Below are positions 12,111 through 56,695 of a stretch of DNA of 64,000 nt, piece after piece. Source of the DNA: Buxus sempervirens (Eukaryota; Streptophyta; Magnoliopsida; Buxales; Buxaceae); assembly GCA_947561395.2 (NCBI GenBank), contig OX387185.1:20176366-20240365 (forward strand), in the 5' to 3' direction. The translations under genes were made by a program, and so were the position numbers. The number at the start of each line of letters is the position of its first letter. Within the stretch, counting starts at the first letter, position 1. The notes beneath the pieces are model-generated. The model was not told the DNA's origin and did no database searches. It was given only the letters and a program-made list of their open reading frames with translations.

Positions 12111-14755
12111 GGACCCTCCTCTCCACCACCCAAGACATACATAGGCCCCCTTCTCTATGTCCCATCTCCCCCCAACTCTCTCAAGACACTCTCCAAGGCT
12201 CCACCCACCACCACACTCCCTAAGCCTCTTAACCTCTTCCAAACCCCTCCCAATCTCCACCAATCATCTTGTTTCTTCCATCTTAATTCAGAGGGGAACC
12301 TAGAGAGCATTAGGAGTTTGAAGGGGAGGAGCTCAATGGCTGTCCATACTTCAAGGAAGCATCAATACACCCCCAATAATGCTTTTATCCCCAAGGTGAG
12401 CCTCCTCTCCAATGTTTACAGTACATATTGTGAGACATGGAAAAACAACCAAATGACTTCCTCAATCATCACATGGGCTCGATTAAATCATGGAGTCACC
12501 ACCATTCAGTTTTAGGTGTGAATGGACACCAAAAATAATTAAATAAAATACAAAGAGGAAAATTAAAGTAAAATAGCTCTACTTTAAAAAAATAAAAATA
12601 AATTAGAGATGGGTAAGGGGATTAGGTTATGAATAGGGTAAGGTGTTAGGCACCCCTATTCATCCACACAAGGTGGTTGCCAAGTATTGTTCATGTTTAA
12701 ATAAATGCTTGCTAATTAACACAATAAAAAAAAGCTTAAAAATAGTTCAACATATGCATGATTCCTCCACATGAGCAGTCCAATAAATTCTGGACACTCT
12801 CTATAGATGCATCACTTCTAGGACATTCCCAATTAATGACAATCAAAGTAAAACTTGAATACAAGCAAGTTGAAACAAATCCGGAAAATTCAGTAGAAGA
12901 TGAAACCATTGGAGCTTGAAAATCTTATTCGACCATAAATCATTCAAATCAAATGAAAATTGAATCAAACCAAAGCCATTTGAAAGATTATGTAAAGTAT
13001 AAGACTCAAGAAAATTTCCAAGTAAATCCGATTAAAAACATAAGAGATATGCTTGTTTGAAATCTGATGTTATAAGTTGATAAAAATGATAAGTGGGCAA
13101 CTTTGAAAACTTATTCGTGGAGATTGGCTCTATATAAATCTCTGAAAACTTGTATGAATGAAGTTTGAGGTGCCATATTTCAAATGAAATAGACCCCACA
13201 AAAAACTTCATTCGAATGTGACTTATGTGACCTCCCCGAACATGATTAGAGGATCACAAATTAACCCAGAATTCTGCTATTGAGCAGTTTTGAGTAAATC
13301 AAACACACAAGACACAAATGAAATCGAAAAGTCGTGAGACCAATTGGATTTGAAAGTACACTCACAAAGGAAAACACAGAAACAAAACCACTTAAATTGG
13401 ACTTAAAACGAGCAAATGGTGCTCAGTCAAAGTGATAGGTTCAGCAATCTGGCCTGAATTGACTTGTCGACTTTGATCAAGTGGTATCAAAAATACACTG
13501 CATAGCAATTGCTGAAAATTTACATACTAAAACTAGACAATCCCACCTATCACATGTCTTTGAAATCACTCGAAAATTCATCCGGATGACGAAGTTATGA
13601 GTGTTCTAAGACAGGGTACAGGTGCTGTCTTGTGTTGAAAACTTTAGGTCAAAATCAACCTAAAACAGTGAGCAAGTACGTGCGATCTAAACCAAAATCA
13701 TTTGAAAAAAATTTGAAAACCCCAGAAAAATGTAGGGCACGAATTTGGCTCAAAACTCTCATTGATTGGACAGAAAATACCAAAACCCCCAAAATAGGGC
13801 AAAAATGCCCAAAACAGAGAGACTAGACCATGAGGTCTTCTCTACTCAAAATGAACTTACTCGTATTCTTTTGAAAACCATTAAGAAATGTCCAAGAAAG
13901 ATTTAGCGTAAGGAATCGGTTCATGCATCTCATTGATTAAGAAAATGAACCGAATATGCCCGTATTGAGACAAAAAATCCCAACTTGAGAGATTAGACTA
14001 TGAAAGCTTTCTCTTAAAGATAGGATTACTTGAAAATCTTCTAAAACAGTTAGAAATAATCAAGAAACATCTAGGGTAAAGATCCGATTCATGAATCTTA
14101 TGGATTGAAGAAGATGAATCGGACGTACTTGTATTGAAACGAAAATCCCAACTTGAGAGATTAGGCTATGAAAACCTCCTCTCAAAGATAGGATTACTTG
14201 AAATCCATTTAAGGATCATAAAAAAGTTGATCGAAGGCCATTTATCTCAGATCTGTCATAATGAATACGATAGATCCAAAATATGAGCCTATTTCATCAA
14301 AACCGGTGAGATGTGTGCATGTGTAAAAAAACATCTTTTTTCGAAGGGAATGGAGATCCAATGCTATAAACAGCATGGATCTTGGTATTCTCTCCAGAAA
14401 ATGGAATCAAACTCATAATATTAATCAACACATATGAATCACAACATATAGCATTCAAATGGGGGGTTCTATAACTAGGGTTCCATTCCCATTCTCGTTT
14501 CCCCTAGCTCTCTCTTCACGTTTTACGACTAGAGAGGGTCTTGAGGTACTTTGAGATAGGAATAGGGTTCCAATCACACTCAGGCCTTACTCTAAAGAAA
14601 GGAAGAAGAAGAAACTAACCCTAGAATTTAAGAACAGAAAAATAAAAGGGTTTTAGGCTTACCTGGGATTCTGGGAGCAATGAGGCAGAGGTTCCCTTTT
14701 TCACTTGGAGCTCTTCAATCTCAAATTTCTGGCCATTTGCTTGTGGAGAGGCCTT

Positions 14756-14764
14756 CTATTTATA
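14756..14764 (-). promoter_or_regulatory. B2 LTR TATA box
   Basis: Minus-strand TATAAATAG in the context GCCTATAAATAGA, as in B1. The nearest palindrome unit is about 170 bp upstream, unlike the A family, where the gap is 11 bp. Confidence 0.7.
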
Positions 14765-14933
14765 GGCAAAGGCTAGGGCAAGGGGAACCCTAATGGTAGA
14801 CGCAAACATATGTCTAGAATCCACCCACTTAAACCCTAAGGCTATTTTCGGGAATTCCTACCTCTTAGATAGAGGTAAAACAGTAGAAAAAGTTAAAAAT
14901 CTCGGAATTTTCAAAGTTTGCAGCAAAACATTA

Positions 14934-15023
14934 GTATCCGACAACTCAGGTTGGATACAAACAAAAACCTTTGTATCCGACAGATAACAAAATAATTTGT
15001 ATCCGACAATTATTGTCCGATAC
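14934..15023 (-). promoter_or_regulatory. B2 LTR palindrome array (GTATCCGAC core)
   Basis: 25-bp units at 14934-14958 and 14999-15023, plus a degenerate unit from 14973, which is 39 bp from the first. Arms are GTATCCGAC and variants of GTCGGATAC. The same core and 39-bp step occur upstream of both B2 opposite-strand genes (15543, 19557). Confidence 0.85.
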
Positions 15024-15137
15024 ACAGGAAAAAGCTCCTATTCGAACTTTCACTTCGAATACAAAAGAAAATTTTATTTTTTAATGATTTTGGCCAATTA
15101 TTCATCTTTTTATGCAGTGCAATTTGGGGTGTCTACA

Positions 15138-15150
15138 ACTACCCCTCTTT
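15138..15150 (-). promoter_or_regulatory. B2 polypurine tract
   Basis: On the minus strand AAAGAGGGGTAGT lies immediately before the LTR start. It identifies 12429-15137 as a 3' LTR, so B2's internal region lies to the right. Confidence 0.85.
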
Positions 15151-15542
15151 GTGGGAATTGCAAAGCAATGAACAACAAAGATTAGACAAACCCAAATTGC
15201 ACTTCCTTAACCATGATTTGCTCTGTTCAATTTTGCAAAATAATTTTGGGTGAAGATTTGCCAAAAAGCCCTAACTTTAGGGGGGGGGGCATTTCTCCAA
15301 GCCGTCTTAAGTTCCACTGAGCTCTCGTGGCTATGAAGTGGATTTTAATACCAAAATAAGATTTTTGAAAACTGATTTTGTAGCAAACCATATCAGAAAA
15401 ATTGACTGAATATTCCCTTTGATTTTTTTATTTTTTCTTTTTTTTTCTTTCTTTTTCTTTTTCTCTTTTTCCCTTTTTTCCTTTTTTTTTAATTTTTTTC
15501 CTTTTTTCTTTTTTTTTTTCCTTTTTTTCTTTTTTTCTGTTT
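15151..15542. other. B2 3' non-coding region with T-rich tract
   Basis: Between the polypurine tract and the internal array there is AT-rich sequence, then a low-complexity poly-pyrimidine run at about 15420-15540 on the plus strand. Poly-Phe or poly-Lys ORFs across it are artefacts of composition. Nothing else is seen. Confidence 0.7.
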
Positions 15543-15606
15543 GTATCCAAAATTTGTGTTCGGATATAAAAGCTTCCCTTTGTATCCAACATGAGTTGTC
15601 GGATAC
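15543..15606 (+). promoter_or_regulatory. Palindrome array at promoter of B2 mobile-domain gene
   Basis: Two 25-bp units, 15543-15567 and 15582-15606, start 39 bp apart. The second has arms GTATCCAAC and GTCGGATAC. TATATA follows at 15614, 7 bp after the last unit. The array faces the opposite way to B2's own transcription and precedes the mobile-domain gene. Confidence 0.8.
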
Positions 15607-17017
15607 AAAGGGTTATATACCTGCGCGTGCGATCGCGACTTGCATTCTGTTTCTTTCTTCTCCGAACGCTTAGATCGGATACAGACTTCTCCTTCCCCGA
15701 TGACGAACACTTGCTTCCGGCTAGTTTCTGAGATTTCCGGCGAGCTCCATCAACTCCGGCGACACCCCTCAACTCAGAAAATCCACCGTGACTCCAGCGA
15801 ATGGTATTGTCGAGCCCTAGCTCGGTTTCGATTTTAAACCCTTGTTTTCCTTAACTCCAAGTGAAATCCCTTGCTTGGTGTCTTCTAATTTCTGGCAATA
15901 ACCCTCTGCAGTTGATTTGTGATTCCAACCTCTGTTAGCTCCTGGTTTGTTCAAATTGGAATTTTGTTCACAAATCAGGTATGCCCGATCCACCCTTTCA
16001 GCTATCTCTTTTTTTATTTTTATTTTTATTATTGATTACATGCTTATGAAGATTTGACTCATACATGGTTTCTTATTGAATGACATGCTTGATTCATTTG
16101 AATATCCTGCTGTGATCGTATGGGTGCTGATGCCTTCTACTGGTTGATTCGGATTTCTTTTCTGAAAATGATTTACTGTGCTGAATTTCTCCACATTCGA
16201 TTGATTGTATTTTCATGGTTCTCCCTTGTAAATATTGATCAGATAAAACTTGTATTGTGGTGTGGCTTGTTTTCCTGATCTGCATGCTGTTTTGGTAATC
16301 TCTGAAATATGTGTGCAACCTCGTGCCATCCAATTGACAATGACCGAGAACATTGGCTTGTTTTCCGGTGGTGATTTCCAACTGTAACCACCTCCACTGG
16401 CTACTACCCATGATTCCATTGGGCATAAATCCCTTCGAGACTCTGCCTTTGCATTCCCATTTTGAAGCAGAGTATGATCAAACTGAACATGATTTTTCTT
16501 TGATCCAATCTTATCCATATACCATGCTGTTATCTGTTCTTCTTCTTCTTCTTCTTTTCTTTTTTCACAATCTGCCTTGACACCCCAATTCGACTTTAGT
16601 ATGCTTTTGATCAGGGCGGTGCTTCAACTGCCCGGATTTTTCTATGATTTGTTCTTGAAAAATCCTTGCTTTATGGATTCCATGATTAATTCCACACTTT
16701 GCATGACCACCCCGAATTTGGTGTCCTGGTAGTCCTTGAAGTATGCTTACAATTCTTGACTTGTGTCCTGAGATTCTATGAGATTAATTGCATGCAATTC
16801 TTGCTGGGACTTCTTTATGCAATATTTATCCCTTCACTTTGCACATTTGTTCTGCTTTACTAAGTACACCTTGTAGTTTTTTCTTTCTTCATCTGGTAAT
16901 CCTGAAAACAAATTAGGAAAGATTAAGCTTTATAGACATTTTTAGGATTAGAACAATATTGGAAGTCAAAATTTATGATAAACAATTAAATATAAAACAC
17001 TTCCCTGTTTCCTATAG
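15607..17017 (+). other. 5' untranslated/intron region of B2 mobile-domain gene
   Basis: This lies downstream of TATATA (15614). A GC-richer stretch (15620-15830) with CCGGCGAGCTCC resembles a plant first exon. AT-rich, T-rich sequence follows, ending in the acceptor TTTCCTATAG|ATGGCTAGG at 17017/17018. Exon boundaries within it cannot be fixed by eye. Confidence 0.45.
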
Positions 17018-19370
17018 ATGGCTAGGAGTTGTTCCCGTGTGTGAGAGGAGGTTGATCCAGCTAATCAGCCTTTCATTTTCCAGACGTTGAGATTGGGATC
17101 CGTCCATCTGATTTCGTTATGATCACTGGTATCCCACTGGTGGGGTAGACTATTGTGATGGATCGGCCTTCTGCTGCAGACATCAGCTTTCTTCTGGGAT
17201 ATGCAGTCTTACTCAATGACGCTTGGGACGGGAGGAGTGGCAGACTCTCTACCAGCTGGCTGCGTAGTAGCCTTGTTGATCACTTTGAGGGGAGGCATGC
17301 GACCATCACTGCGGAGGCTGAGGACTTTGCACCTATTTTCCGGCACATTTTCTTGCTGATGCTCGGGTGCTGCTTCTTCCAGGAGGACATGACTGCGGTT
17401 AGTCTTGTTTTCTAAGATGCCCTGAGTGACCTCCGTCAGACTAGGCGATTGGCATGGGGTCGGCTCATATATGGGACCATCTTGGCTGGACTATGCCAAG
17501 CCATCCGTGGTATGGCCGGTCCGAGAGGAGATGGTGTTAGTTGCCGATTCTTCTAGTAGATATTACAGGTATTGACTGCCTTTGTTTTATTCCAAAACTT
17601 TATCCTTCCACCCCTAACTGGTTTTTCTCTTTCCAGATATTCATGTATACTTACATGACTTATTTCTGTCCATCTCCTGTGCCTGATGTTGATGAGTTCC
17701 CCGTAGCCATACGGTGGTCTGTGCTTGATAGGGATGTAGATAGGAGCCAGCCCTGTTCAACTCGGGTTCACCTGGACCGTACCCGACGATCCGATGTAAA
17801 ATTCCTTAACCCTTTATTTCTTGTATCTTTCTTTCAGGCCTTTGTCAATTCTTGACATTCCTCTTCTTCTTTGCAGCTCTTGTTGGCCCACTTTGAGGAT
17901 GTGGTTGACGGGGTGGCTCGTGAGCTCATAGTACAGGACGCTTTTGATCGGGATGTTCGACGCCAGCCCTACCAGTGCTTCCTTGGGAGGCTTGGTAGGG
18001 TTATGTATCTAGGCGAGCGATTGTACTATCAGCACACAGCCGTGCCTCGTATTCCGGTTCCTCCTCCTCCTGTGGGTCCTACTACCCTTATGCCTGAGTT
18101 TGATGTTGGCTAGTTTGACCAGTGGGAGGATGCAGAGGGGCTTACAGCAGCTGGAGAGTACGATGAGTGGTTCCGCAGAGTATCTATCGGATGCCTGATG
18201 GATCGGCCTACTCGGGCGGGAGTGATTGAGATCGGCGGGATCTTCATCCAGGTCCTCGATGATACTGTAAGTTTACGATCTGCCTTTTCCATCTCATTTC
18301 CTTCAATTTAGCATTTATGACTTTAATCCCGTTCTTATTGGCAGGTAGAGGAGTTGAATGCTCTGCGAGACTGGTTTCAGAGTCAGCGGGCCGCAGTTGA
18401 TGACTTGATTGCTGAGCACGATGCAACCGTGGCTCAGAGAGATGCTCGGATCAGAGAGCTGGAGGCTCTAGTTGTAGAGAGGGACAGCCGGATCTCGGAA
18501 TTGGAGGTTGAGCTTAGGACTAGACAGGTATCTAGTTTTCTATATTTTTATTTCTCCTTTCTGTATTTCTCCGTCACTCTGATATGAATTACTTGATTTT
18601 TGCAGGCTTATTCACAGAGTCCAGCTCATGCCCATGACTAGGTATGTTTCCTTTAGGATTTTGATATCTTTTATTTCTGCAAATTGATACTGATTCTTGT
18701 CCATTCATGATTTTCAAGATTTTGACCATCCAGGCCCTTCTACCTCTGTGGGGGTTGCTTTGGGTACCGATGATGCTCCTCCTAAGCCAGTTCTTACAGT
18801 TCATGGTTCATCTCCAGCTACTGATTCCGATGTCATCCCGGTCACTGGTCCTGCTTCCACCTCATCCCCTGCTCCTGCTTCTACCGCAGATCCTGCTGGT
18901 GCATCTCCTCCCGTGATCGTTCCTGATCCTACAGTTCTTGCTGCAGATATCCCTGGTAAGCTTGCTTTAATTTCACTTCTTTGGTTGATTATGACATTTC
19001 AAATTCTAACTTCATTTCCATTAAAACAGTTGTTCCTGTCCCTAATCCTCTTCCTACTGTTGCCGAGACCTCTGGAGCTGTGGGAGTTGAGACTTCTTTG
19101 GCTGAGTATCCAGAGGCGTCTGTTCCTCCGGCTGGGCTTGCTCCTTTTGAGCCTGAGGCTTCTACATCAGACTCTGTTCCTACGGGCCCATTCCCTGACA
19201 ACTCGACTTACAACTATACATACCAGATTCAGTCCGTTCTGGGCCAGATGCCTTGCTGCGCTGCTGATTGTATCATGACCCATGTCTTCGGGAGCCGACG
19301 ATCTCGAGGTAGAGGCTGCAACGGAGCACGTGGTAGAGGACGTGGGGATGGTCCTGCAGAGGAACAGTAG
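17018..19370 (+). pseudogene. Plant mobile domain (MAIN-like) gene, intron-bearing, inside B2 in antisense
   Basis: The plus strand shows an exon-intron gene. Likely exons are 17018-17568, 17637-17795, 17877-18266, 18345-18527, 18606-18641, about 18717-18955 and 19030-19370, with GT..AG borders such as TTACAG|GTATTG and TTGCAG|CTCTTG. The product has EIGIRPSDFVMITGIPLVG, a helical DFAPIFRHIFLLMLG segment and RRLAWGRLIYGTILAGLCQA, matching the pattern of plant mobile domain proteins (MAIN family, also linked to transposases). An arginine/glutamate coiled coil (18345-18527), a Pro/Ser/Thr-rich part and an RG-rich tail (GRGRGDG) follow. In-frame stops occur near 17149, 17413 and 17553. It is oriented against B2's pol. 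Extra ORFs, some with such a domain, are known in Tat elements. Confidence 0.7.
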
Positions 19371-19556
19371 ATTAGGATCTCTTGTATATTTACATTATCC
19401 TTGTAAAAATGAAATTCATATATAAGAGAAACTTTTCATTCATTGTTTCTTGCTCTTTTCTTTTCATTTTTTGCAATTATAAAATGTGCACAGGTAATAC
19501 AGGGAAAATTTTTTGAACTTTTTCTTCCTTTCCCTTTTTTTTCTTCTTTTTTTTTG
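19371..19556 (+). other. 3' end of mobile-domain gene and T-rich spacer
   Basis: AT-rich sequence after the TAG at 19368-19370, with an AAATGAAATTC stretch that could serve for polyadenylation, followed by a T-rich run leading into the next palindrome array. No ORF is supported. Confidence 0.4.
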
Positions 19557-19698
19557 GTATCCGACATATCAGGTCAGCAAAGGCAAGCTTCTTTTGTATC
19601 CGACAAGAGATATTGGATACAAATAGTATTCTTTGTATCCGATATATTTTGTTAGATATAAAAGGAATACTTTGTATCTGATCTGACATGTCGGATAC
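19557..19698 (+). promoter_or_regulatory. Palindrome array at promoter of B2 DUF7745 gene
   Basis: Four 25-bp units start at 19557, 19596, 19635 and 19674, exactly 39 bp apart. Arms are GTATCCGAC and GTCGGATAC, with one arm decayed in the first unit. TATAAAA begins at 19711, 12 bp after the last unit, close to the 11-bp gap of A-family LTR promoters. Confidence 0.85.
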
Positions 19699-19710
19699 AA
19701 TTAATTGTAT

Positions 19711-19717
19711 TATAAAA
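19711..19717 (+). promoter_or_regulatory. TATA box of B2 DUF7745 gene
   Basis: TATAAAA lies 12 bp after the palindrome array and 117 bp before the ATG at 19828. It gives this gene a private promoter independent of the LTR. Confidence 0.6.
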
Positions 19718-19827
19718 TCAACAGGCCTCGGGATGTGCGTCATTTTGACGACCTTTTGAGTTTAGAAAACCCCCTTTCTTCTTTTTTCCTCCCTCAACTT
19801 AATTCTAGCAAGCTCCATTCATCCCTA

Positions 19828-21483
19828 ATGGGCTCCAGATCATCTTCTGCTCCGTTATTGTCTGCCAATGAAGCCTCCCCTACAAAACAACCATTTAGAG
19901 CAAAACCCCCTAATCTCACTAGGTACAACTTTGTAGATTCATTCAACAATAGGTGGGTCAACTCTATGACTCTTGAAGAGATCAAATGCGATTCCATCCA
20001 CCTAGGTCATATTTTGCTCATCCCTGCCATCCCGTTTAAATGGGAAATCATCGAGGCTTTGATTGGGCATTGGGAACCTCAACTATATCTCTTTCGATTT
20101 GGTGACAAAGAGATGACCCCAACCATTGAGGAGGTTGAAACTATTCTTAGCCTGAGGTTTTCAGAGAAAGTGGTAAATCCACCCCTAAAGCCTAGCTACA
20201 AAAAGGAGGTTTCCACCTTTCTGAGTATAGGGAAGAAGGATCTAGGGGGCTCCAATACACTTTTGACCTTGTCCAAACCTTTTATGACTGAAAAGCTCTT
20301 GAGGGGGGAAGATAAATAGGCCCGGTTTAATGCCTTGACCCTGATAATGGTCAACCAGTTACTTTTTCCACGGGATGATGATGAGGTTGATTTGGCTCTT
20401 ATCTCGGTCATATGCCAGGTTAGGGAGCGCGAGAGATTGGCCCCTATGATCTTGGCGGGGATGTACCAAGCATTGATTGACTGCTACCACAGGAAAAAGA
20501 AGCGCTTCCTGGCATGTGCCCCTATTCTACAGGTAAAATCCCTTTTTTTTTCTTTTCTTCTACAATACATTGAAATATTTTCCCTTTTCTGCAGCGTTGG
20601 TTACTTGACCACCTGAGTTAAATTGAGATGATTGATTGACGCTTCTCTCCAAGAATGAAAATTCTTGTCTTGATGAGCAACCGAGGGTGTCCTAACATCC
20701 AAGGAGGCAAGCAGGGTTAGTTTAATTTCTTGGGTACTCTCCAGGATGATCAGGTGAGGTGGCCTGGCTCTTATCAGCCCAATGCAGAGACAGTGATCAG
20801 CTTCAGAGACAGGAACTTCATCATTCTAGTAGGCTCAAGGTCTACTGTCCTCTACCTTCTTTTGTGGGTTCTTCGGCAATTTGGAGCGACCCAGGGGATT
20901 ATGATCCCAAATGGATATGAGGACTTCCTTGTGCCACTTACACCAGCCACCATGGGGCTGAATGCTCGGTTGATGAAGGAATGGTCCTATGCTCGTTTTC
21001 TGCGGGGCCCAGTCTTTTCTGAAGCCCATGTGAAGGACTATATTTTTTGGATCAGAGAGCAGGTCTAAAGTTGTGCCCCAGTACCAGAGGATCTTCCTGT
21101 TGTTCTTGCACCCACTTATGGAGATATATTGGTTTCTGAGAGAGCATCCCACAAGCGGCTTCAACAAATTTGGGTACGAGAGGCCCAAGAACTTAGGATA
21201 CAGGGTATTGATCTTGAGAGGCAACTTGAAGAGCAGGTATCCCGCCGTATTGCTATGGAAACTTGAGGAGCAGAGATAGGCTCGCTGCTTCGAAGTCTGA
21301 GTGATATGGCAGAAGTACTAGGATGCTTTAACCAACCTTAGAGGCATGAGGATCAGGCAGACACTTTCAGATGAGGTCATCTCCTTTTTTAGCGATCCGG
21401 ATATAGAGGGAGCTCCTGGGATTATTGTGGCTCAGGCGGCTCGGATTCGAGAGCTTGAGGAACGGCTAGGGGATAGGGACTAG
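19828..21483 (+). pseudogene. DUF7745-like accessory gene with intron, inside B2 in antisense
   Basis: It starts MGSRSSSAPLL at 19828. The signature HWEPQLYLFRFGDKEMTPTIEEVE corresponds to WDPQLSVFRFG..ELTPTIEEL of A2 ORF1. Downstream parts LAPMILAGMYQAL and YLLLWVLRQFGATQG also have A2 counterparts. A 62-bp intron (20533-20594, CAG|GTAAAA to CTGCAG|CG) splits the region that is continuous in A2 ORF1. In-frame stops (TAG at 20317 and others) and frame breaks near 20640-20730 and after 21240 show decay. The tail ARIRELEERLGDRD is a short charged helix. Orientation is opposite to B2 pol. Function unknown. Confidence 0.7.
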
Positions 21484-22427: not shown

Positions 22428-23650
22428 TCAAGGAAAATACCTTTTTACTGCATCAGAGTTAATTGGCTCAGGAAATCTTTTCCATCCATTTCTATTAAGA
22501 TGAGTGCACCCCCTGACAGGACCTTCTTGACAACATAAGGCCCTTCCCAATTTGGCTTGAACATACCACGAGGGTCATTAAAAAATGGTAAGATTTTCTT
22601 TAAAACCAAATTTCCTTCTTGGAAAGTTCAGGGCTTCACCCTCTTATTGTAAGCCCTGGCCATTCTCTTCTGGTAAAACTGGCCATGACATAGCGCCTTT
22701 AAACGCTTCTCCTCTATCAGATTGAGTTGATCATGTCTTGACTGTATCCATTCAGCATCTTCCAATTCTGCTTCCATTAGCACTCTTAGTGATGGGATTT
22801 CAACTTCCACTGGCAAAACTGCTTCCATCCCATAAACTAGGGAATACGGGGTTGCCCTAGTAGAAGTCCGGATTGAGGTCCTGTAGGCATGTAGAGTAAG
22901 CGGTAGCATTTCATGCCAATCTCTGTAACTCACTACCATCTTCTGAATGATTTTCTTTATATTTTTATTCGCTGCTTCTACTACCCCATTCATCTTTGGT
23001 CTGTATGGAGTGGACTTGTGATGGGTAATATGGAATTGCTCACACATCTTCTTCATATCCTTGTTCTTAATATTCGAAGCGTTGTCTGATACTATGGCAT
23101 TTGGCAAACCATAGCCACAAATAATGTTGTGCTTAAAAATTTTAAGAACATGGATACTTGTGATATTTGCATATGAAGCCGCTTCTACCCACTTGGTGAA
23201 ATAGTCGATTGCTACCAGGATAAATCTGTGCCCGTTCGATGCCTTAGGAGAAATCATGCCAATGACATCTATGCCCCACATAGAGAAGGGCCATGGTGAT
23301 GTCATGTTATGCAGCTCACTTGGTGGTGCATGCTTGTTATCCGCATATATCTGGCATAGATGACACCTCTTAACATGTATACAGGAATCGTGCTCCATAG
23401 TCGACCAATAGTATCCCAATCGCAGAATCTTCTTTGCAAGCATGTGCCCGTTCATATGAGGTCCACAGATTCCTCCATGTATAGTCTCAATTAACCTTTC
23501 TGACTCAGCCTTGGCAACACATTTGAGTAGAATATCATTATGTGATCTCTTGTACAATTGTCCACCACTTAGTAGGAACTGACCGGCTAATCTCCGTATT
23601 GTCCTTTTCTCAGTAGAAGTGACATTTTCTGGCAGACTCCGATCGTTCAA
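22428..23650 (-). pseudogene. B2 pol: integrase
   Basis: On the minus strand there is an HHCC zinc motif (HMNGHML..CHLCQIYAD), the catalytic core with WGIDVIG, IVSDNASN and GVVEAANKNIKK (D, D, E residues), and a C-terminal GNLVLKKIL..PNWEGPYVV segment of GPY/F type. No chromodomain is visible. A TGA interrupts RVKP*TFQEGN near 22627, where CGA is likely to have been original. Another TGA at 23672 separates it from RNase H in the same frame. The polyprotein ends at the TGA at 22428. It joins the element's DNA copy to host DNA in intact relatives; this copy is inactive. Confidence 0.85.
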
Positions 23651-24769
23651 GAAATTTTTGATGTCTTGAAATCACGGTACTTCCTCTTCTGGTGCTCCCT
23701 CTAGAACAAGACAATATGCAGGCTCATCTCTGACTTCAATTTCTAGTGGTTTGATATCTACCCCTTTTGGCATGCTGACCATTGAAGCCAATGTTGCTAG
23801 AGCATCCGCAAACTGATTTTTGGCCCTTGGCATATAGTTGAAGGAAATTCTAGTAAATTTAGTGCTTATTTCTTCAAAATACTGGTGATAGGGGATCAAT
23901 TTATGATCCTTGGTTTTCCATTCTCTAGTTGTTTGGAAGATGATAAGACTCGAATCTCTGTATATGTCAAATTCCTCCACTTCATGGTCTAAGGCTGTTT
24001 GCAACCCAATTATGCATGCTTCATACTCTGCAATATTATTTGTGCATTGAAATCTCAACTTCACAGCGATTGGGATGTGTGACCTGTCCGGCTTGACCAA
24101 AACTGCCCAAATTCCATTTCCATTCATGTTGGCGGCCCCATCGAAGAACATCTGCCAAGAGCTTTCACTTTCCTCTTCCTCAGTAAACAGAATTGCCTCA
24201 TCAGGAATGTTAGTCTTCAAATGTTGGTATTCTGGTAGAAGATGTGCAGCTAGGTGATCGGCAATGGCTTGACCTTTAATCGCCTTCTGTGTGATGTACA
24301 TGAGGTCAAATTCGGAAAGCAACAGCTGCCACTTTGCCGTTCTGCTAGTTAGGGCCGGTTTCTCAAATAGATAATTCAGAGGGTCCATTCGGGATATCAA
24401 TAATGTGGAGTGACTGAGGAAGTAATGCCTCAGTCCTTGAGTTGCCCACACTAAAGCACAACAAGTCTTTTCCAAAGGGGAATACTTTGCTTCATATTCC
24501 ATGAACTTTTTACTTAGATAGTAAATCGCTCTTTCCTTTCTGCCTGTCTCATCATGTTGCCCCAAGACACACCCCATTGACGTCTCCAAAACCGACAAGT
24601 ACAGAATTAGTGGTCTTCCTGGAGTTGGTGGCACTAGTACAGATGGATTCAATAAATATTCCTGTATTGTATCAAAGGCTTGTTGGCAATCATCATTCCA
24701 GACCGTTGGGTTGTTCTTTCTTAGCAGCTTGAAAATCGGTTCACAGATAGCAGCGAGCTGTGCTATGAA
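23651..24769 (-). pseudogene. B2 pol: tandem RNase H domains
   Basis: Two RNase H modules occur in one frame. The first has LYLSVLETSMGCVLGQ..AIYYLSKKF and ends TQKAIKGQAIADHL. The second, archaeal-type, has MFFDGAANMNG, IAEYEACI, YRDSSLII (Asp retained) and FADALATLASM, giving the expected D-E-D-D residues. A second RNase H after the first is a hallmark of the Tat lineage (Ogre and relatives). It is closed by a TGA at 23672, and a TAG near 24770 separates it from reverse transcriptase. Confidence 0.85.
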
Positions 24770-25673
24770 CTAGCTTATGTATTGAATCCTTCCAAGAAAA
24801 CCCCTAACTTCCTTCTCCATTCTCGGTGATGGCATTTCAATAATTGCCTTTGCTTTAGCCAAGTCAATTTCAATTCCCTTTCTGCTTACAATGAACCCCA
24901 GTAATTTCCCTGATGTAGCCCCAAAGACGCATTTTGCCGGGTTAAGCCGTAAACTGTACTTCCTAAGTTGATCAAACACTTTCTTCAAATTGATCAAGTG
25001 GTCCTTTTCTTTGCATTATTTGGTGATCATATCATCCACATAGACCTCCATCTCCTTATGGATCATGTCATGGAATAGTGCTGTCATGGCCCGCTAGTAG
25101 GTTGCCCCGGCGTTCTTAAGCCCAAACGACATGACCGTGTAGTGGAAGGTACCCTAAGGTGTGATAAATGCCGTTTGCTCCTAATATTCCTTTGCCATCT
25201 TGATCTGATTATACCCTGAGAAACTGTCCATGAATGAGAACATACTATGTATAGCAGTATTATCGACCAGAATGTCGATGTGTGGAAGTGGAAAATCATC
25301 CTTTGGGCTTGCCTTATTTAGATCTCTATAGTCCACGCACATCCTGACTTTCTCATCCTTTTTTGGTACTGGAACTATATTTGCGAGCCACTCGGGGTAC
25401 GTGGAGACTACCAAAAATCCCGCTTGGAATTGGCTTAACCCTTGGCAGAATTGGTAGCTTGTGCACAACCATGTTAGTATCTAATCCCGACATATCCCGA
25501 TACGACCATGCGAATACATCTTTATAATCAGCCAAGAATTGGGACATTGCGTTACGTTGCTCATCAGACAAGCATGCCCCAATTTTCACTATTTTTGGGT
25601 CATCTTCGGTCCCTAGATTTATTGATATGGTCTCCTCAATATTAGGTTGCACATCCCTTTCATGACGCTCCAA
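24770..25673 (-). pseudogene. B2 pol: reverse transcriptase, degraded
   Basis: Fragments in order are FAWSYRDMSGLDTNMVVHKLP, TYPEWLANIVPVPKKD..MCVDYRDLNKASPKDDFPLPHIDILVDN, then MEVYVDDMITK with the catalytic YVDD, and LRLNPAKCVFGATSGKLLGFIVS. At least five in-frame stops occur between 25015 and 25185, and a frameshift with a small deletion near 25440-25470. In function-competent relatives this enzyme copies element RNA into DNA. It is clearly dead here. Spacing to the RNase H part is normal. Confidence 0.85.
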
Positions 25674-26075
25674 TTGATATTCAATTTCCTTTGGAGGGTC
25701 TTCTTCTTCGACCTCGGTCTCTTCTTCGATCCCTATTAGGTCAAAGTCGAGCTCAAGGTCGAAGTCATATTCAACCTGATTTAACTCTGTTTGCTTGTAT
25801 GGTTCATAAATGGTTTGGACCTTTTTGAAAAAATTAAATTTTCTAGAAAAAATAGAAAAATCTTTTTGGGTTTTTTTGTGAGTCTTCTAAAAAACTTTCC
25901 CTGAAGACAAAGGCTCATTAAGACCTTCAGGAAAATGGCATTCCACTAATGGAGTTTTTTTTTGGAAGCCGCTTCTGTTTGCTAGTCAAACGCTGCTTCA
26001 AAGGTAAGGGGAGTTTCCTCCCAATTATTTAAAACAAAATTTTCAGGAGTAGGGGAAATGGTGCAAGCCTCCTCC
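25674..26075 (-). other. B2 pol acidic linker, no intact ORF
   Basis: The minus strand encodes a degraded acidic stretch (FDLELDFDLIGIEEE..) leading into pol and then T/A-rich sequence. In Tat/Ogre elements the protease-RT border often contains an intron or stop. No splice pair can be fixed here. Confidence 0.5.
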
Positions 26076-27591
26076 TCAAGCTTTGAATCTGATGCCATCA
26101 TCATCGGATGAGTTGTACTGCCCTTTTTCTGCCACGAGGCCCAATCCAGATAGAACCTCATCTGGAATCCTTACTGCTGCCCAATCAATGAAAGGCAACT
26201 CCTTATCTTCTTCAGTCTTTTCGCCTTCAGTCATGGTGAAGAAAGCCCCAATGTCCTTAGTGACATCCTGCTGCTTTTCTGGCTGTGGCCTAGACCCGCC
26301 CATTGTTTCAGGTGCAGAAGGTGAGTTGTATAGTTGCAGGGTTGGAACATATGGCTTTTGAAAGGGATTGATGTTGTGATACGGAGGCTTGGATTGATCC
26401 ATGGGAGGAGACAGTTGGATCTTATATGAGGGTTTAGGAAAATTTTCCCTTAAATGAGGGAATTTTCCTCTACATCTCTTCTCTATATTCTCCCCTTCTT
26501 CCTGCTTCTGCCTTCTCCATCCTCTTAGTTTAAACCCCAATCCTACTCTAGGGGTAAGCTTCTTGGCCCTTATTGGTTCCAATCTCCCTTGCAAATTGAC
26601 CCCCAGACCTTTCCTGGATGGAAGTTATATTTTCTCATCACTTTGTTTACCTTCTTCTCAGTAGTAGTCATTTTCTTTTTTTTTTCCTTATACCCCCCAG
26701 GTATAAAATTGACCGTTTTGAACTGAAACGAGTGAAACACAATTTTGTCGACAATTAAATCAACATTGATGAAGGGTACGTCAGGTGACACTATGGGAGG
26801 TATCAAATTCTCAACTAGGACAATTATCACCCTTTGTCCTCTTATATACTTTACCCTTTGGTGAAGAGTGGATGGTATTGCCCTAGCCGAATGTATCCAC
26901 GGCCTCCCTAGGAGCAGATTGAAAGTTGCTGGGATATCCATCACTTCAAATGTGATGTTAAAGATATTCGGTCCAATGGTTACCGGCAGTTCAATCTCCC
27001 CTAGGGAGTGTGTCTTAGAGCTATCGAAAGCCATCACAATACTCCCATTTTGTTTGATCTTGGATTGATCCAGACCAAGTTTGGAAAAAGTGATTAATGG
27101 GCAGACATTTAAAGCCGACCCATTGTCAATTAAAACCCGTGGCACCATATTGCCCTTACAAAACACAGTGATATATAAAGGGCCAACATGGTAACACCCA
27201 CCGGGGCTTATCTCACTTTCCGAAAAACTTATCACATTGTGTGACAAGATTTGACCAACGATTTTGCCTAGTTGGTCTGGATCAATAGCCTTAGGCACAT
27301 GTGCACTCTGAAGCACCCTTAATAATGCATCCCTGTGCTTTTCAGAATTCAGCAAGAGCCCCAATATTGAAATATGGGCAGGGACCTTATTCAACTGATT
27401 GACAATATTAAATTCAATTTTTTTATTACTTTAATGAGGTCTGATGCCTCATTTCTGCATCCTAGGGGGTGTCCTCCCCTATTTTTGTCTTTCCTTTCAT
27501 TTTTTTTCTTTTCTTCTACTTCTTTTATTTCCTTCTCCACTTCCGGTTCTTTTTCATTTTCTTCTCCTCCTACACATCTCCTTGACCTCGT
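26076..27591 (-). pseudogene. B2 protease, G-patch-like segment and linker
   Basis: The minus-strand frame begins with TRSRRCVGG at the A2 insertion point (27591). It continues through a Glu/Lys-rich stretch and KVPAHISILGLLLNSEKHRDALL to a retropepsin-like domain with VLIDNGSALNVCP (Asp-Asn-Gly in place of Asp-Ser/Thr-Gly) and FNLLLGRPWIH. A glycine-patterned region (HPGKVWG.., PRVGLGF) resembles the G-patch-like segment of A2. Linker sequence rich in Pro and Gln runs to 26076, with frame changes near 26580. The upstream gag part appears to be at 61195-63119, beyond the inserted block. Confidence 0.75.
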
Positions 27592-28141: not shown

Positions 28142-28387
28142 GTACCCGGTATTTAATATCGGATACACTAGCTCCCCTTCATAACCGGACTTGAAGACCG
28201 GATGCAACAAGATTTTCGCGCGAGATTCGCGCCGATCGCCCGACAAATTCGTGGCGGCATTTAATTTTCAAATGATTATGTTTTGTATCCGGACTTGAAG
28301 ACCGGATAAAAAGGAAGGCCCGTGTATCCGGACTTGAAGGCCGGATAAGAAGGGGTCTTAGTGTATCCGGCCTGAGTTGCCGGATAC
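28142..28387 (+). promoter_or_regulatory. A2 5' LTR promoter palindrome arrays
   Basis: 25-bp units start at 28142 and 28181, then at 28285, 28324 and 28363. Spacing within each group is exactly 39 bp, and the gap between groups is 104 bp. Arms are GTATCCGG and CCGGATAC; the last unit is a perfect inverted repeat with a 7-base centre. The array ends 11 bp before TATAAATAG. Confidence 0.9.
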
Positions 28388-37384: not shown

Positions 37385-39467
37385 CACATCTCAAAAAGGG
37401 TTTTAATACGTAAGGTAAGACTCCTCCCCATGTTAGATTCAACATATATTAAATCCATGTTTTTCTGAAAATATTGCTGGGTGGTTTCCTCTTTTGCATG
37501 GGGCCATGCTCCTACCATGTTTAGGCATGCATTTGTTTCCTTTTTTTTATGGCTTAAGGGTCCACTCGGTTAAGAGGTCCACGTGGGGTTCTCCCTTAGG
37601 CATGGGAGTCTCCTTTCACTTTTTTTGAGTAGTTTTTTAATGTGCTGCTTTGAGGGCCTATAGACAGGAGTATGTTCCTTGGCCCCCATCTAATGTACCC
37701 CTATGTAAACCCCCCTCTCTCTCCCTTCTTTAAATTTTCGTGGGCTAAGGCATGAGGTCTTGGGTTCGGAGGTCGTTAGGAGACGGACAAAATGCATGTT
37801 AGATCATGGGTCATTCCGTTGGTTTCCTCGCTCACTTTGGTTTTCCTTTGTCTTGCTGATTTCCTTACGTCTTGCATGCTTTGTTTCTTTTAAGAAATTG
37901 ATGATGAATGCTAGATTCCTTTAGCTATACCTATTTGTTTATGCATGGTAAGTCATTTTCTTGCATGCACACACGCCTTGGTCAATCATGGGAGTATGCC
38001 TCAAGCCATGAACCCTTGATTGAATGTTGTGGCGGAGTTTCAGGAGCCCAAAGCAGGGACACTTTGGTCCCTGCCATGGTGCAAGCATGACCCCCTTCCC
38101 CACTGTTTTGCCCCTTTTCCATTGCTAGAAAGATCCAAGGGGAGAAGCCAAAGGGGGGCTTCTCCCAAATCTGAACCAACGTGGGCCCTCACAGGGGCCC
38201 ACAAGATCTCTAAAATGCCCCAGGAGCCCCCTGGAATCCATCCCAAAGAGCATAATACCCGAAATGGCCACTTCAGGGTGATCCGGAAACTCAGGCTGGA
38301 TCACTTGTGGCCTAGGTATATGCGGCAACTAAGGCCGGATAACCTATGGCCCCTGTGTATCCGGCCACTCTAGCCGGATCACCTGCAGACCAAGTGTATC
38401 CGGCCTGAGTTGCCGGATACACACACAGAAGTGTTTTTTTTGTGTATTGTGATGCCTTACTGAATTTTGGGGATGATTTTTACTAAAACCACTGAACCAA
38501 TAAGGTTTCCGGGTCACTCGGAAACCCAACTTGGGACTTGGACCAACCGGTCCAACTTGGCTCACTAGTGGGCCTTCCAACAGGCCCACCAAGTCCAATA
38601 AACCCCTAAAGCATGCAATTAAGCAAGTAAAGTAAAAATGAATTAATTGAACCGGTTGGGCCAAACCCAATGCGGCCCACCCAGACCTTGCTATGTGAAA
38701 TGAGCGCATGAATTGCCTGGTTTGGCCGAGACCAAGGGCCAGGGCCTATCGGGCCCGCCAAAGCCCGCTAACCAAACCCAGTTAGGGCGCAAGCCCTAAA
38801 CTCCAAGGAACTGGGCTTTCAAGCCCAAAACCTAGATCATGGGCCCCAAGCCCAGTGTCCAGCCCACTCTGGAAAATTAAAAAGATAACATAAAACTACT
38901 TGGCCACCATGTGGGCCCGCCTAAAGGGCCCACAAACCCATCCGGCCCACCTTTGCATATAAAATACTTAACATCCAAACTTGAATGTTGAGGTAAAACC
39001 AATTCACTAACCTAAGCCTGAAGGGCCTCCTAGGCTTAGACAGAGGCCCCACATGGGCACATGGGCTTACCCAAGCCCAACAAAGACACCGTGGGCCTTC
39101 CAACGGGGCCCACCCACTCAAACTCAGGAAACTTAAGTTAAGCAAAGATAAAATCAACTAAAGGGACCCACACCACTCAGGTGGTCCCGCCAAGACCTAA
39201 CAAAAAGCATGCTGGATTAGGAATCGGGTGAAGACCAAATAGAATGTTGACTCAAACCAGGGAACCCACAGGACCCGTCATCCGACGGGGTGGACTGGGG
39301 TGTCTACGGACTTCCCCAGACCGCAACCGAGAACCGCACTTAGAATCTCAAGCCGCAGACCCAAAAAGCCCTAAATAGACAAGATTAGGCACCCAGGTGT
39401 CCGCCTGCACCCCATCAGGCGGTGGCGACTCCGAATCACCCCGTGCCGCATTTCCCACGCGCGCACA
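37385..39467 (+). repeat. A2 5' LTR, second part (2083 bp)
   Basis: Continues the A2 LTR after the Athila target site and aligns with 55661-57743. It includes a splice-donor-like TAAG|GTAAGA at 37414/37415 and palindrome array 2 at 38280-38420. The end (GCGCACA or GCGCA, 39465-39467) precedes GCC and the primer site. The repeated GGCCC/GGGCC words are LTR sequence, not genes. Confidence 0.88.
38280..38420 (+). promoter_or_regulatory. A2 5' LTR second palindrome array
   Basis: Four 25-bp units start at 38280, 38318, 38357 and 38396 (38, 39, 39 bp). Arms are GTATCCGGC and GCCGGATAC variants. It lies downstream of the LTR TATA box, so it would be transcribed. A matching array lies at 56555-56695. 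Confidence 0.9.
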
Positions 39468-39488: not shown

Positions 39489-41008
39489 CCACTCAGCCCA
39501 GTAGGACCCTGCTTAGACCGAGTCAGCATAAGAGGGATTTTAGTGGATACTTAGGAACCCTTGCTACCCCAATTAGTAAGGCACAGAATACACGTAACTG
39601 CGTGTCCTGGGGAGTCCTGCCACAAGGACGCGATAATTGCCTAAGGCAAGTGGAATTTAAGTGGTCCCCTGTGACCCTCCACTTACCTGGGGATTCTCCC
39701 AGGACATCGTAATACGTGCCAATTCTGCACCTTACTATACGAGGTAGTAGGGATTCCTTTATCACCTAAATCCAGACAAAACTCACCCGTATAGGCACAG
39801 CACGCAGCCCAACTGCACACACGGGCACACCACCACACCGTGGACAGATGTTTTACTTTAAATTCCTGCGTCGGTATGATAAAACTGCGTGGGGTGACAC
39901 GCACGAGGGAGGATGCGTGAATGATCCGACCCTTGATAGATGAGTGAATCGGATATTGCTACTTCTTTACCAAACTTAGACCTCTCTAGCAGCCTACCCT
40001 TCTGATTCCTATGAACTGATCTTTGGGATGGTATTAGCACCTACGCTCCCATGGCTTGCCGGGGAAAGCAGGGTAAAACCATCCCCCCAGTTTTCTGGAG
40101 TCCATTAGCACCACTGGTTTCTTGCCGTGGCACGCAAGGATCCAGTACTGGTCCAGACCCTTGTAGGCTTATGTCTCGGGCTGGGTATCCTCCCCCACCT
40201 AACGTTTCTAAATGAACCTTGCGTTGAGCATAAGAGGGTGAGTAGGATGTGAATGTTGAATACAAGAGGAGTAAAATTGGGATAAAATTCAGAGTCCATT
40301 AGGGGCAGCAACCCCCGCTTTTTGCATCAAATTGAGTAAACCCTAGATCATGGGCAACCTCAGCCCTAATTTAGGAAGCTCACCTAATTTTGATCAGGGG
40401 AACCACCCCAGATCCATGCATAGAGTCCTGTATGCTATGGGTCTTGACCCATTAGAGTCCGCCGGAAGCACTTTAATTCCAGATTGGTCTTCTTAGAGCA
40501 GACGAAAGCCAGCCAGATCAGACAGACAGATGAAAGCATGCCAGGGCACTAAACCCTAGATCTAGGGATTTTTTTAGCCTACCTGCTTTAGAAGCAATTT
40601 GTATCCTTCCTTTTGGCCCCCAACAGCCTTAAGGATGAATTCTTTGCTGCTTTTGTAAATATCTTGTAAAAATTCACCCTTGATGGCAAGTTGTAATTTT
40701 TGCTGTAATCCGACATCGAAAGCAGATGAAAGAACAGATGAAAGACAGAAGACTGATCGGGACTTGAGTGTGCCCCCTACACAAGTATGTCTAGGAGTAG
40801 CGCCTTCATTGGCGCCAACCCTTAGGACCACACACCATGTGTGCCTGAGTTAAATTCCGCACTGTCATATCTTTTGCTTTATCTTGTGAAGCATGTTAGA
40901 ACTACTAGTGGTTAGCTCTTTTGCTTAAAATTATGCATGTCTTAGGACTGACTTAGAGTCTTGGTATGGAACCTTAAATTGATTCGGAATTTCGATCGGA
41001 TAGTTGGC
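39489..41008 (+). other. A2 5' leader
   Basis: Non-coding sequence between primer site and ORF1. Its first 532 bp (to 40020) are repeated at 57765-58296, and its length is matched by A1 in inverse orientation. No ORF is supported. Confidence 0.75.
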
Positions 41009-42442
41009 ATGGCATCCTCATCCTCATCTGAGAGAACCCGTTTCCCTAGGATAGAGAAGTGCGCCTGGGATACCCCCTGGATCCGTTCTTGGACAAGGCA
41101 GCTCCAAGGGAGTGAGCAGATTGAATGGGAGCACAAATACCACATGGGACAGACTTTGTCCCTGTTAAACGTGCCGATCAACTGGGATATGATCCAAGCG
41201 GCATTGCTTTTCTGGGATCCCCAGCTTTCAGTGTTTCGATTCGGGATCAATGAGTTGACCCCCACAATTGAGGAACTTGACCTGTTCCTCCGATTTCGCG
41301 ACTTAGGAGAGCCTGCTAGGCCAAGCCTCAAAGAAAGCTACAAGAATGAAGCTTGCGTTTTCTTTGGCCTCTCCAGGGGAGAGTTACAGACCTTAGGAGG
41401 TGACAAATCATTCACTAGGGTCTCCAAAACATTCCTGGATGAGAAAATAAGAAACAAAAAGCAGGAAAGACCCCGGGCTTGGTTTGACACCTTCACCCTT
41501 GTGGTTCTGTCGCAAATCTTCTTTCCAACTGGGGGATACACCATTAATTTGGCCCTCATGGAAATTGTGGATCAACTCAGGGCAGGATACCGAATCATGC
41601 CACTGATCCTAGCTCAATTGTTCCATTCCCTGACCTTGTCCAAAAACGGAACCCGGAGGTTTCAAGGGTGCGCCCCCCTTCTCCACCTTTGGCTGCAAGA
41701 CCACCTGATGGTGTCATCACCAGTCAGTGCATACTACAAGGCAACCGGCGACAACATCCATTGGTTGGCTCAAAGAGAGATCAAACCAGACCTACCCGCT
41801 CGTGAGGATTGGTTTAACCACTTTCTCCACCTGAAGGGAGAAACGGACATTAGATGGTGGGGTAGATACAACATCCCCTACACCCCCATCATAGCCTTCA
41901 AGAAAAGAGAGGGACTTGCCCTGATAGGCCTTACCCATGCCGTGCCATACTATCCGATTCGGGTTCTGAGACAGTTTGGGAAACCGTAGGGAATCCCGGT
42001 CAAGGACGACTTGGGCAATTTGATTGGTCCACTCACCAAGGGACTAAGGACCCAACTGCTGACGGAGTGGAAAACAGTTTGCGTATATCGGGAAGACGTC
42101 TTCAGCGAATCGCACTTTCGAGACTATAAGCAATGGATAGCTCGGGAATTTGGCCACGACGGCCCCCCACCTCTTCAACCTGTCGCATCAGGCGACATTC
42201 CAGTTCCGCCTCCTAACAAATACAGGGACAGGTTGGCCGAACTGCAGGAGACCCACTCCCGTATCCATTTAGCTTATGTGGATTCGGAACGGGAGAGCAG
42301 GCAGGCCAATGCGGCCTTGCAACAGGAAATGGAATTGGTGTGCAAGCACGCAGAGGAGGATCGACGTCTGCGGAACAAGCTTCTGCGAGCCTTGAGGAGG
42401 CAAGACGTGTCCTCCCACTATGATGATGACCAACCTAGCTAG
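41009..42442 (+). pseudogene. A2 accessory ORF1, DUF7745-like, with one amber stop
   Basis: The frame of 477 residues starts MASSSSSERTRFPRIEKC (an upstream in-frame ATG at 40961 is not conserved in A1). Residues 60-110 hold WDPQLSVFRFG..ELTPTIEELDLFLRF, which resembles the plant DUF7745 family, itself similar to plant mobile domain proteins. The middle has helical segments (INLALMEIVDQLRAGYRIMPLILAQLF, VLRQFGKP). The C-terminal 80 residues form a charged coiled coil (RDRLAELQETHSRIH..). A single TAG at 41987-41989 breaks KP*GIP; A1 has the same stop. Ogre-type elements commonly carry an ORF1 here. Its role is unknown. An intron present in the B2 relative is absent. Confidence 0.75.
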
Positions 42443-55142: not shown

Positions 55143-55388
55143 GTACCCGGTATTTAATATCGGATACACTAGCTCCCCTTCATAACCGGACTTGAAGACC
55201 GGATGCAACAAGATTTTTGCGCGAGATTCGCGCAGATCGCCCGACAAATTCGCGGCGGCATTTAATTTTCAAATGATTATGTTTTGTATCCTGAGTTGAA
55301 GACCGGATAAAAAGGAAGGCCCGTGTATCCGGACTTGAAGGCCGGATAAGAAGGGGTCTTAGTGTATCCGGCCTGAGTTGCCAGATAC
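55143..55388 (+). promoter_or_regulatory. A2 3' LTR promoter palindrome arrays
   Basis: Same five 25-bp units as in the 5' LTR (28142-28387), with a few arm changes, for example GTATCCTGA at 55286. The 39-bp step and 11-bp gap to TATAAATAG (55400) are preserved. Confidence 0.9.
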
Positions 55389-56554: not shown

Positions 56555-56695
56555 GATCCGGCAACTCAGGCCGGATCACTTGTGGCCTAGGTATATCCGG
56601 CAACTAAGGCCGGATAACCTATGGCCCCTGTGTATCCGGCCACTCTAGCCGGATCACCTGCAGACCAAGTGTATCCGGCCTGAGTTGCCGGATAC
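56555..56695 (+). promoter_or_regulatory. A2 3' LTR second palindrome array
   Basis: Units at 56555, 56593, 56632 and 56671. The first three are better palindromes than in the 5' LTR copy (38280..), with arms ATCCGGC/GCCGGAT. Confidence 0.9.

Follow-up and report, generated by a model that had tools for sequence, protein, structure and literature searches.

The question raised by this locus is whether several promoters of one retroelement are addressed by a single trans-acting factor. In the window, i.e. the whole stretch of 64,000 nucleotides of Buxus sempervirens DNA that was analyzed, the first-pass annotation had described palindromes on a 39-bp step at the LTR, the promoter of the plant-mobile-domain (PMD) gene, and the DUF7745-gene promoter of one element (B2), and had proposed one factor, plausibly encoded by the element itself, for all three. 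The array pattern in B2 was confirmed and is more extensive than first noted.

Palindrome arrays in the window

B2 lies on the minus strand, and position 14934 falls within its 3' LTR (12429..15137, minus strand, U-type). The start of this LTR, TGTAGACACCCC, adjoins the polypurine tract AAAGAGGGG (15142..15150, minus strand), and the LTR resembles those of other loci for approximately 2.7 kb, up to near 12429. Its U3 array (14934..15062) has units at 14934, 14973, 14999, and 15038; the unit at 14973 has no right arm and that at 15038-15062 is degenerate. The positions first given for the three B2 arrays proved right, whereas the 39-bp step holds in the LTR only between the first two left arms and is followed by a step of 26 bp. 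The LTR TATA box (TATAAATA, 14757..14764, minus strand) lies 169 bp beyond the array in the sense direction.

Both accessory genes of B2 are antisense and are located between pol and the 3' LTR. The PMD-gene promoter carries a two-unit array (15543..15606) and a TATA-like box (TATATA, 15614..15619, plus strand), followed by the decayed gene with several exons (17149..19370, plus strand). At the DUF7745 gene (19705..21483, plus strand; PF24924, 6e-07), which is decayed with an internal stop, four units on 39-bp steps (19557..19698) precede the TATA box (TATAAAA, 19711..19717, plus strand); the right arm of the first unit is decayed. The two boxes thus lie 7 and 12 bp after their arrays, as had been reported. 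The rest of B2 comprises a broken pol (RT-RNaseH and integrase; 22445..27430, minus strand) and gag (61190..63137, minus strand), parted by a nested insertion (27592-61194), and a four-unit leader array upstream of gag (63898..64038), the last unit of which is just beyond the window end (64000). Antisense ORFs between pol and the 3' LTR, which is a Tat/Retand-like plan, were found in B2 and in the elements E10 and E19, the latter two with target-site duplications of GTTTC and CTCAT, respectively. Pfam scans of pieces of the decayed antisense genes gave PMD/DUF7745 or no match, and TRP28 (PF04195), a mark of Retand, was not found in them, although their decay may have removed it.

The window also holds an A-family element. 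One of its LTRs has an array with G-type arms (28285..28387; TATA at 28399, 11 bp after) and a second array (38318..38420) approximately 1.3 kb downstream when the nested insertion is discounted; the nested Athila-like element (28660-37379) contains no palindrome. The second LTR copy likewise carries two arrays (55325..55388, with TATA 11 bp after, and 56593..56695). The DUF7745/PMD gene of this family (40952..42442, plus strand) is in sense orientation between the 5' LTR and gag, and open 496-codon frames of it occur in many other copies.

Array architecture, TATA phasing, and arm base

The palindrome unit is 25 bp, with arms GTATCCG[A/G]C and a 7-bp spacer. Perfect A-arm and G-arm palindromes occur 4335 and 6434 times, respectively, in the 676-Mb genome, with no occurrence of either reversed pattern. 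The window contains 34 approximate palindromes, compared with 0-5 per shuffled-arm control (20 controls), and 41 half-sites with at most one mismatch, compared with a shuffle mean of 4.73. In the examined loci, 34 perfect-arm palindromes were AA, 17 GG, and 10 mixed, a tally that is biased because loci L005-L024 were selected for perfect A-arm palindromes; for the same reason array presence in these loci is no test, and they inform on spacing, unit number, ends, and TATA distance. Two pairs among them (L010/L011 and L019/L020) are the LTRs of one element each, and L016/L017 are 97% alike.

Throughout the 279 kb examined, the step between adjacent units was exactly 39 bp in 101 of 102 cases, and runs of one, two, three, and four units, the maximum, numbered 12, 14, 14, and 20. 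Exact facing half-sites up to 120 bp apart were separated by 7, 46, or 85 bp in 98/102 cases and by other distances in four. Left and right arms covary (973 of 1134 cells paired, compared with 900 after shuffling; sd 7.4, max 925). The outermost units bear inward-facing CAG/CTG spacers: the spacer ended in CAG in 18 of 34 first units (16 without the mark) and started with CTG in 21 of 34 last units (13 without), one last unit having the mark in reversed orientation, and none of 54 internal units carried it.

The arrays are also phased to TATA boxes. A half-site followed by TATA within 0-30 bp was found 2753 times, compared with 20 in the control; among 100 matches listed, the gap was 11-12 bp in 98 and 8 bp in two, which belong to PMD promoters, from two elements. 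The array-TATA gap was 12 bp in the DUF7745 promoters of all eight elements compared, three of which (B2, E10, and E19) were encountered without the TATA pattern and five through a search pattern joining a half-site to TATA over a free gap (0-30). All six PMD promoters compared had two units and a gap of 7-9 bp. T-type LTR arrays have TATA 11-12 bp away, and for U-type LTRs the distance was 165-167 bp in 14 of 19 and 155-156 bp in three, with no TATA match in two. Just 11 of 48 arrays had a TATA 5-20 bp from the array edge (null 2.3% per edge), since it lies at a greater distance from U-type arrays and is missing in the vicinity of leader arrays and second LTR arrays.

The first-pass annotation had suggested asking whether LTR and internal arrays co-vary among elements. 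In the six elements compared, which are few and of related lineages, the LTR, PMD, and DUF7745 arrays of an element carry the same arm base (position 8), which changes from lineage to lineage (r 0.97-0.98; 12, 12, and 6 of 720 permutations), although E10 has mixed arms in every array; the spacers remain position-specific while the arms switch. Half-sites with more than three mismatches from GTATCCGAC were excluded from this comparison, and E19379 and E24973 were omitted as their LTR and PMD slices contained no array. The shared arm base and the TATA phasing give good support to common control as earlier proposed for B2, with one trans factor serving the arrays at several promoters of an element.

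Accessory proteins and the proposed regulator

The accessory proteins match PF24924/PF10536, and DUF7745 is the accessory gene common to both element families in the window. As judged from codon substitutions, DUF7745 was shown to be under purifying selection among elements; the dN/dS of exon 1 was 0.10-0.61 with a median of 0.18 (21 pairs, 7 elements), although the frames of E12293 and E24973 cross frameshifts, which raises dN, and E19379, in which the longest frame was something other than DUF7745, was omitted. The B2 PMD pieces alone gave no Pfam match, and they match a longer ORF of L019 that does (PF10536, 4.6e-9, 36.4 bits, cut-off 34.9); the PMD calls rest on this L019 score and on the B2 pieces other than PMD_B2_3, which had been read out of frame. 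A protein search (2312 candidates) found no homologue beyond the B. sempervirens genome. In an AlphaFold model of the A-family protein, a C-terminal helix (403-468) had a pLDDT of 82-93 mid-helix, the model being otherwise poor (mean pLDDT 38.8, pTM 0.22); this predicted helix would suit a dimer. Crude heptad tests gave no clear support, with equally good values in 304, 68, and 719 of 2000 shuffles for the A protein, the PMD C-terminus, and the B2 DUF7745 C-terminus, respectively. A PDB sequence search returned a single BEN-domain chain (E 0.096), which was gone with a longer protein query.

We propose that the arrays would act as double-stranded DNA operators, each 25-bp palindrome being a candidate site at which a dimer of two-fold symmetry would recognize its specific sequence. 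Between two and four such sites on 39-bp steps, with their often marked ends, would form a single assembly at a class-specific distance before TATA, so that one factor per lineage would address all these promoters, namely the LTR promoter for the gag-pol RNA jointly with those of the antisense accessory genes. Because DUF7745 is common to both families, the factor would most economically be an element-encoded DUF7745/PMD-family protein, and it would probably be an activator. We infer the protein binding, the dimer, the identity of the factor, and the sign of regulation from sequence. On balance, we lean towards regarding the arrays as a promoter-phased operator read by the element's own DUF7745/PMD protein, which would constitute a self-regulating switch. 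A wider generalization, possible although rather doubtful, is that DUF7745/PMD proteins of gypsy elements form a new class of dimeric sequence-specific regulators acting on their own TATA-phased arrays, with at least two specificities (A-arm and G-arm) coexisting. If this were true, the switch protein of a retrotransposon would have relatives in the MAIN/MAIL silencing proteins of the host.

Alternatively, a host transcription factor or a host MAIN/MAIL-type PMD complex may bind the arrays, the elements having spread its sites to their own promoters; we regard this as unlikely, albeit with an appreciable probability. The element protein is so far a candidate binder, and the core GGATA resembles plant MYB-type sites, which we count for a host factor. 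Furthermore, Arabidopsis PMD proteins are reported to be required for genes with the DOWN promoter motif. However, the window contains no exact copy of this published motif (CATGCAGTTT), and the 14 one-mismatch matches there, more than the 6 expected, all lie outside the arrays. Nor would a single host factor readily explain two arm types that coexist in one genome and switch in concert within elements. Such a concerted change requires a sequence-specific reader, which also argues against the improbable reading in which the arrays, instead of being switch operators, are chromatin elements that insulate, phase nucleosomes, or recruit silencing. The 142 bp of a four-unit array, near nucleosome core size, and the 155-167 bp between U-type arrays and TATA would fit that reading, but PMD promoters hold just two units, and T-type and DUF7745 arrays lie 11-12 bp from TATA.

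It is highly unlikely that the palindromes are hairpins serving packaging or stability of the genomic RNA. The covarying arms and the position of the arrays inside the transcribed element would be expected of hairpins; RNA would, however, accept G-U, and sense-oriented U-type units had 10 G-U mispairs compared with 37 A-C (55 distinct, partly related units), TATA-type units being neutral (18 and 22). Phasing to TATA and the rule for end spacers are features of DNA. Tandem arrays close to pol or to the 3' LTR are frequent in Retand elements (PMC11963269), in line with functionless tandem repeats spread via slippage and gene conversion, but we give this reading very little credence: runs do not exceed four, the step is exact, the ends are marked, TATA is phased, and the arms switch while the spacers keep their position-specific sequence. 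CpGs decayed between LTR copies at 8 of 31 sites in arrays and 25 of 91 outside, giving no sign of lasting protection after insertion; since array CpGs decay as elsewhere, their intactness across lineages would need selection.

Comparison with known systems

The proposed element-encoded switch resembles foamy virus Tas, described in PMC4929722 as one element-encoded DNA-binding activator for the LTR and an internal promoter, and in Buxus the same site likewise stands at LTR and internal promoters. Unlike with Tas, there are two internal genes, both antisense; palindrome arrays on a 39-bp step would be the sites, for a factor that is a candidate. As described in PMC5735166, VANC21 and VANC6 of VANDAL elements go with a short motif that is specific to the family and recurs in non-coding regions, and motif and protein evolve together; the Buxus motif, too, is repeated and varies with element lineage. 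VANC21 motifs stand in one orientation at high density, whereas those of Buxus are palindromes phased to TATA, and VANDAL is a DNA transposon with demonstrated anti-silencing, whereas the Buxus element is a retrotransposon in which anti-silencing would be a candidate function. The VANC motif YAGTATTAY matched once in the window, which is at chance level (0.91 expected). Spm/En, unlike the Buxus element, is a DNA transposon. The sites of its TnpA are promoter-proximal repeats, as are the Buxus arrays, of a 12-bp motif without a fixed 39-bp palindrome array. As described in PMC10398659, the element encodes TnpA and is activated by it, in correlation with DNA demethylation. The Buxus arrays would add a plant retrotransposon counterpart to the element-encoded promoter switches of foamy viruses and DNA transposons.

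Retand/Tat-type elements have additional antisense ORFs (TRP28 and Grande gene23; PMC7264820), in place of which Buxus has PMD/DUF7745; a palindromic operator, TATA phasing, and LTR sharing are not described in the accessible part of that source. PMD is reported in 57% of Ogre elements as an eORF (PMC6317226), and Gypsy-only PMD clades (PMD-A) are reported to exist (PMC5418596). Unlike the proteins proposed for the Buxus arrays, these Gypsy-encoded PMDs come without a described cis target in the available parts of the two sources. For the retrotransposon branch of the PMD family, the arrays offer a specific candidate target, and the two natural arm types provide a built-in swap test. They might also account for a share of the tandem repeats described close to antisense genes in elements of this kind.

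Elements and arrays in the window

The window, a 64-kb part of a plant genome of 676 Mb, contains nested gypsy-type retrotransposons. In the minus-strand element B2, gag (63137-61190, minus) is separated from pol (27430-22445, minus) by a large nested insertion, and a polypurine tract precedes the 3' LTR (15137-12429, minus). Two accessory genes lie on the strand opposite to B2, namely, a DUF7745 (PF24924) gene at 19705-21483 and a decayed plant mobile domain (PMD, PF10536) gene ending at 19370. A Pfam scan of the PMD pieces themselves gave no match; a longer ORF at locus L019 that matches these pieces gave a PMD match (4.6e-9). In the second family, A, the DUF7745 gene (40952-42442) lies in sense orientation between the 5' LTR and gag. 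Since the A-family protein (copy L028) matches both DUF7745 (6e-22) and PMD (5.6e-20), the two Pfam families are related. Many open 496-codon family-A copies were found among the 117 scored out of 8088 candidates. The dN/dS of DUF7745 exon 1 between elements was 0.10-0.61 (median 0.18; 21 pairs, 7 elements), showing purifying selection on this exon.

The first-pass annotation had described arrays of 25-bp palindromes in the LTR, the PMD promoter, and the DUF7745 promoter of B2; all three were found at the coordinates given there, with small amendments. The window contained 34 approximate palindromes versus 0-5 in each of 20 shuffled-arm controls. A fourth array was located upstream of gag (B2, 63898-64038; element E10, L011 3167), and both A-family LTR copies contain arrays. 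An Athila-like nested element (28660-37379) with a 1805-codon open frame had no approximate palindromes; its LTRs are 99.86% identical, indicating a recent insertion in an A-family LTR. Long tandem repeats were observed in the A-type internal region at 43226-43915 (periods 51-214 bp) and 4371-4805 (145 bp), and a 77-bp repeat (5.6 copies, 63178-63608) has B2 gag on one side and the leader array on the other.

Array anatomy and distance to the TATA box

Perfect palindromes with A at arm position 8 (arms GTATCCG[A/G]C, 7-bp spacer) numbered 4335 genome-wide and those with G 6434, the reversed patterns giving 0 in both cases. In 24 sequences (279 kb), mostly picked around A-arm sites of one contig, 162 approximate palindromes formed 60 runs, of which 12, 14, 14, and 20 had one, two, three, and four units, respectively. 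The step between adjacent units was 39 bp in 101/102 and 38 bp in one, and 98 of the 102 exact facing half-site pairs up to 120 bp apart were separated by 7, 46, or 85 bp (7 bp alone or increased by one or two 39-bp steps). Across the arms of 126 distinct in-register units, 973/1134 cells were complementary versus 900 (sd 7.4, largest 925) with the right arms shuffled, and the top covarying position was 8/18 (A-T or G-C; 78% paired versus 53% expected). In the 34 arrays of at least three units, the first spacer ended with CAG in 18 and the last began with CTG in 21 (ending with CAG in one), whereas none of the 54 internal spacers had a terminal CAG or an initial CTG. Taken as a whole, many arrays thus have two-fold symmetry and marked ends, which is not what simple slippage produces.

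A half-site followed within 0-30 bp by TATAAAWR gave 2753 genome matches (1361 + 1392) versus 20 for the reversed control. Among the 100 matches listed, the gap was 11 or 12 bp in 98 and 8 bp in two, which were the PMD promoters of elements E7622 and E23239. PMD promoters of six elements had a TATA or TATA-like box 7-9 bp past the array, canonical TATAAA remaining in 2/6. The gap was 12 bp in all eight DUF7745 promoters, five of which came from the above pattern, where the gap was free (0-30 bp). In U-type LTRs, where the array is far from the TATA box, this box (TATAAATA) lay 165-167 bp past the array in 14/19 arrays and 155-156 bp in 3/19, with no match in 2/19; single LTRs gave 169 (B2), 166 (L032), and 155 bp (L036). 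We remark that the two groups are about one helical turn apart. G arms prevail in the 155-156 bp group, but they also do so in L012 7550 (167 bp).

At L015 4994-5239, L021 4990-5235, and window 60386-60632, the array of a T-type LTR is divided into a sub-array of three units and one of two, with a constant offset of 104-105 bp. A further array class was seen at L014 2803, L015 6476, L021 3287, and window 38318, 56593, and 58899; its distance downstream of the TATA-phased array is approximately 1.3-1.7 kb in L015, L021, and the window, and its outer-arm variants TGATCCGAC and GTAGCCGAC keep palindromy.

Concerted arm change within elements

E10 and E19 are real element units with target-site duplications (GTTTC and CTCAT, respectively) and LTR pairs (97.8% identity over 850 bp and 94.4% over 2.5 kb). 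Slices of five more DUF7745-promoter elements contained all three arrays in three, not in two; arms were accordingly compared in B2, E10, E19, and these three. G at position 8 was absent from the half-sites of the LTR, PMD, and DUF7745 arrays of B2 (0/5, 0/4, 0/7; leader, 0/8), E19 (0/8, 0/4, 0/6), and E12293 (0/7, 0/4, 0/8), prevailed in E7622 (7/8, 3/4, 6/7) and E23239 (7/8, 4/4, 7/7), and was mixed in E10 (2/8, 1/4, 4/8; leader, 3/8). The counts at the three places correlated at 0.97-0.98 (12, 12, and 6 of 720 permutations), numbers that overstate independence, the six elements being few and related lineages. The unrelated LTR and internal cores that the first-pass annotation had named as evidence against common control were not seen in these six, in each of which the arm base agrees among the three arrays. 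The spacers stay typical of their position (e.g., ATATCAG to CTGATAT for DUF7745 and CTGAGTT for the ends of many LTR arrays), so the promoters did not simply exchange copies of whole arrays.

A putative operator and its reader

Because of the palindromes, the fixed step, the limited unit number, the marked ends, and the TATA distance, the anatomy fits a DNA operator that would be read by a symmetric protein. That the palindromes act as RNA hairpins is disfavoured by the mispairs, G-U being fewer than A-C in U-type units (10 versus 37), with TATA-type units neutral (18 versus 22). For the DNA operator, the concerted change in the arms is most simply explained by one factor per element lineage, which would read all arrays of its element. 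The DUF7745/PMD protein would be the most economical candidate, because both families have DUF7745 in common. The C-terminal helix of the A-family protein was predicted confidently, the domain itself giving no usable model, and would suit a dimer, but a crude heptad test of the candidate proteins gave no clear support for this. Our guess is that the factor would be an activator, since the arrays occupy the usual place of upstream activators. CpG loss after insertion was equal in arrays (8/31) and elsewhere (25/91) in three LTR pairs, indicating no lasting protection in inserted copies.

Antisense accessory genes with their own promoter (PMC7264820), TRP28 genes with variable tandem repeats in Retand elements (PMC11963269), PMD in 57% of Ogre elements (PMC6317226), and PMD clades exclusive to Gypsy elements (PMC5418596) have been reported, and it was suggested that TEs may produce PMD proteins as counter-silencing (PMC8616336); the available portions of these papers describe no palindromic operator. 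Subscription papers and preprints aside, a literature search on DUF7745 found nothing, and searches on PMD DNA-binding, on Ogre palindromes, TATA, or transactivation, and on broader topics showed no such operator in the titles or abstract beginnings listed. The system would resemble foamy-virus Tas, VANC, and TnpA in action, a functional likeness. One-mismatch matches to the DOWN motif of Arabidopsis numbered 14 in the window versus 5.97 in shuffles, none of the 14 inside arrays.

The BEN domain is a DNA-binding domain. The DUF7745 protein (40952-41986) showed a weak sequence match to it (PDB 5jno, E 0.096), absent with a longer copy. Just outside the B2 LTR, another palindromic tandem repeat, AATGAGAGATCTCTCATT (period approximately 32 bp, 11603-12057), could be another element's operator.
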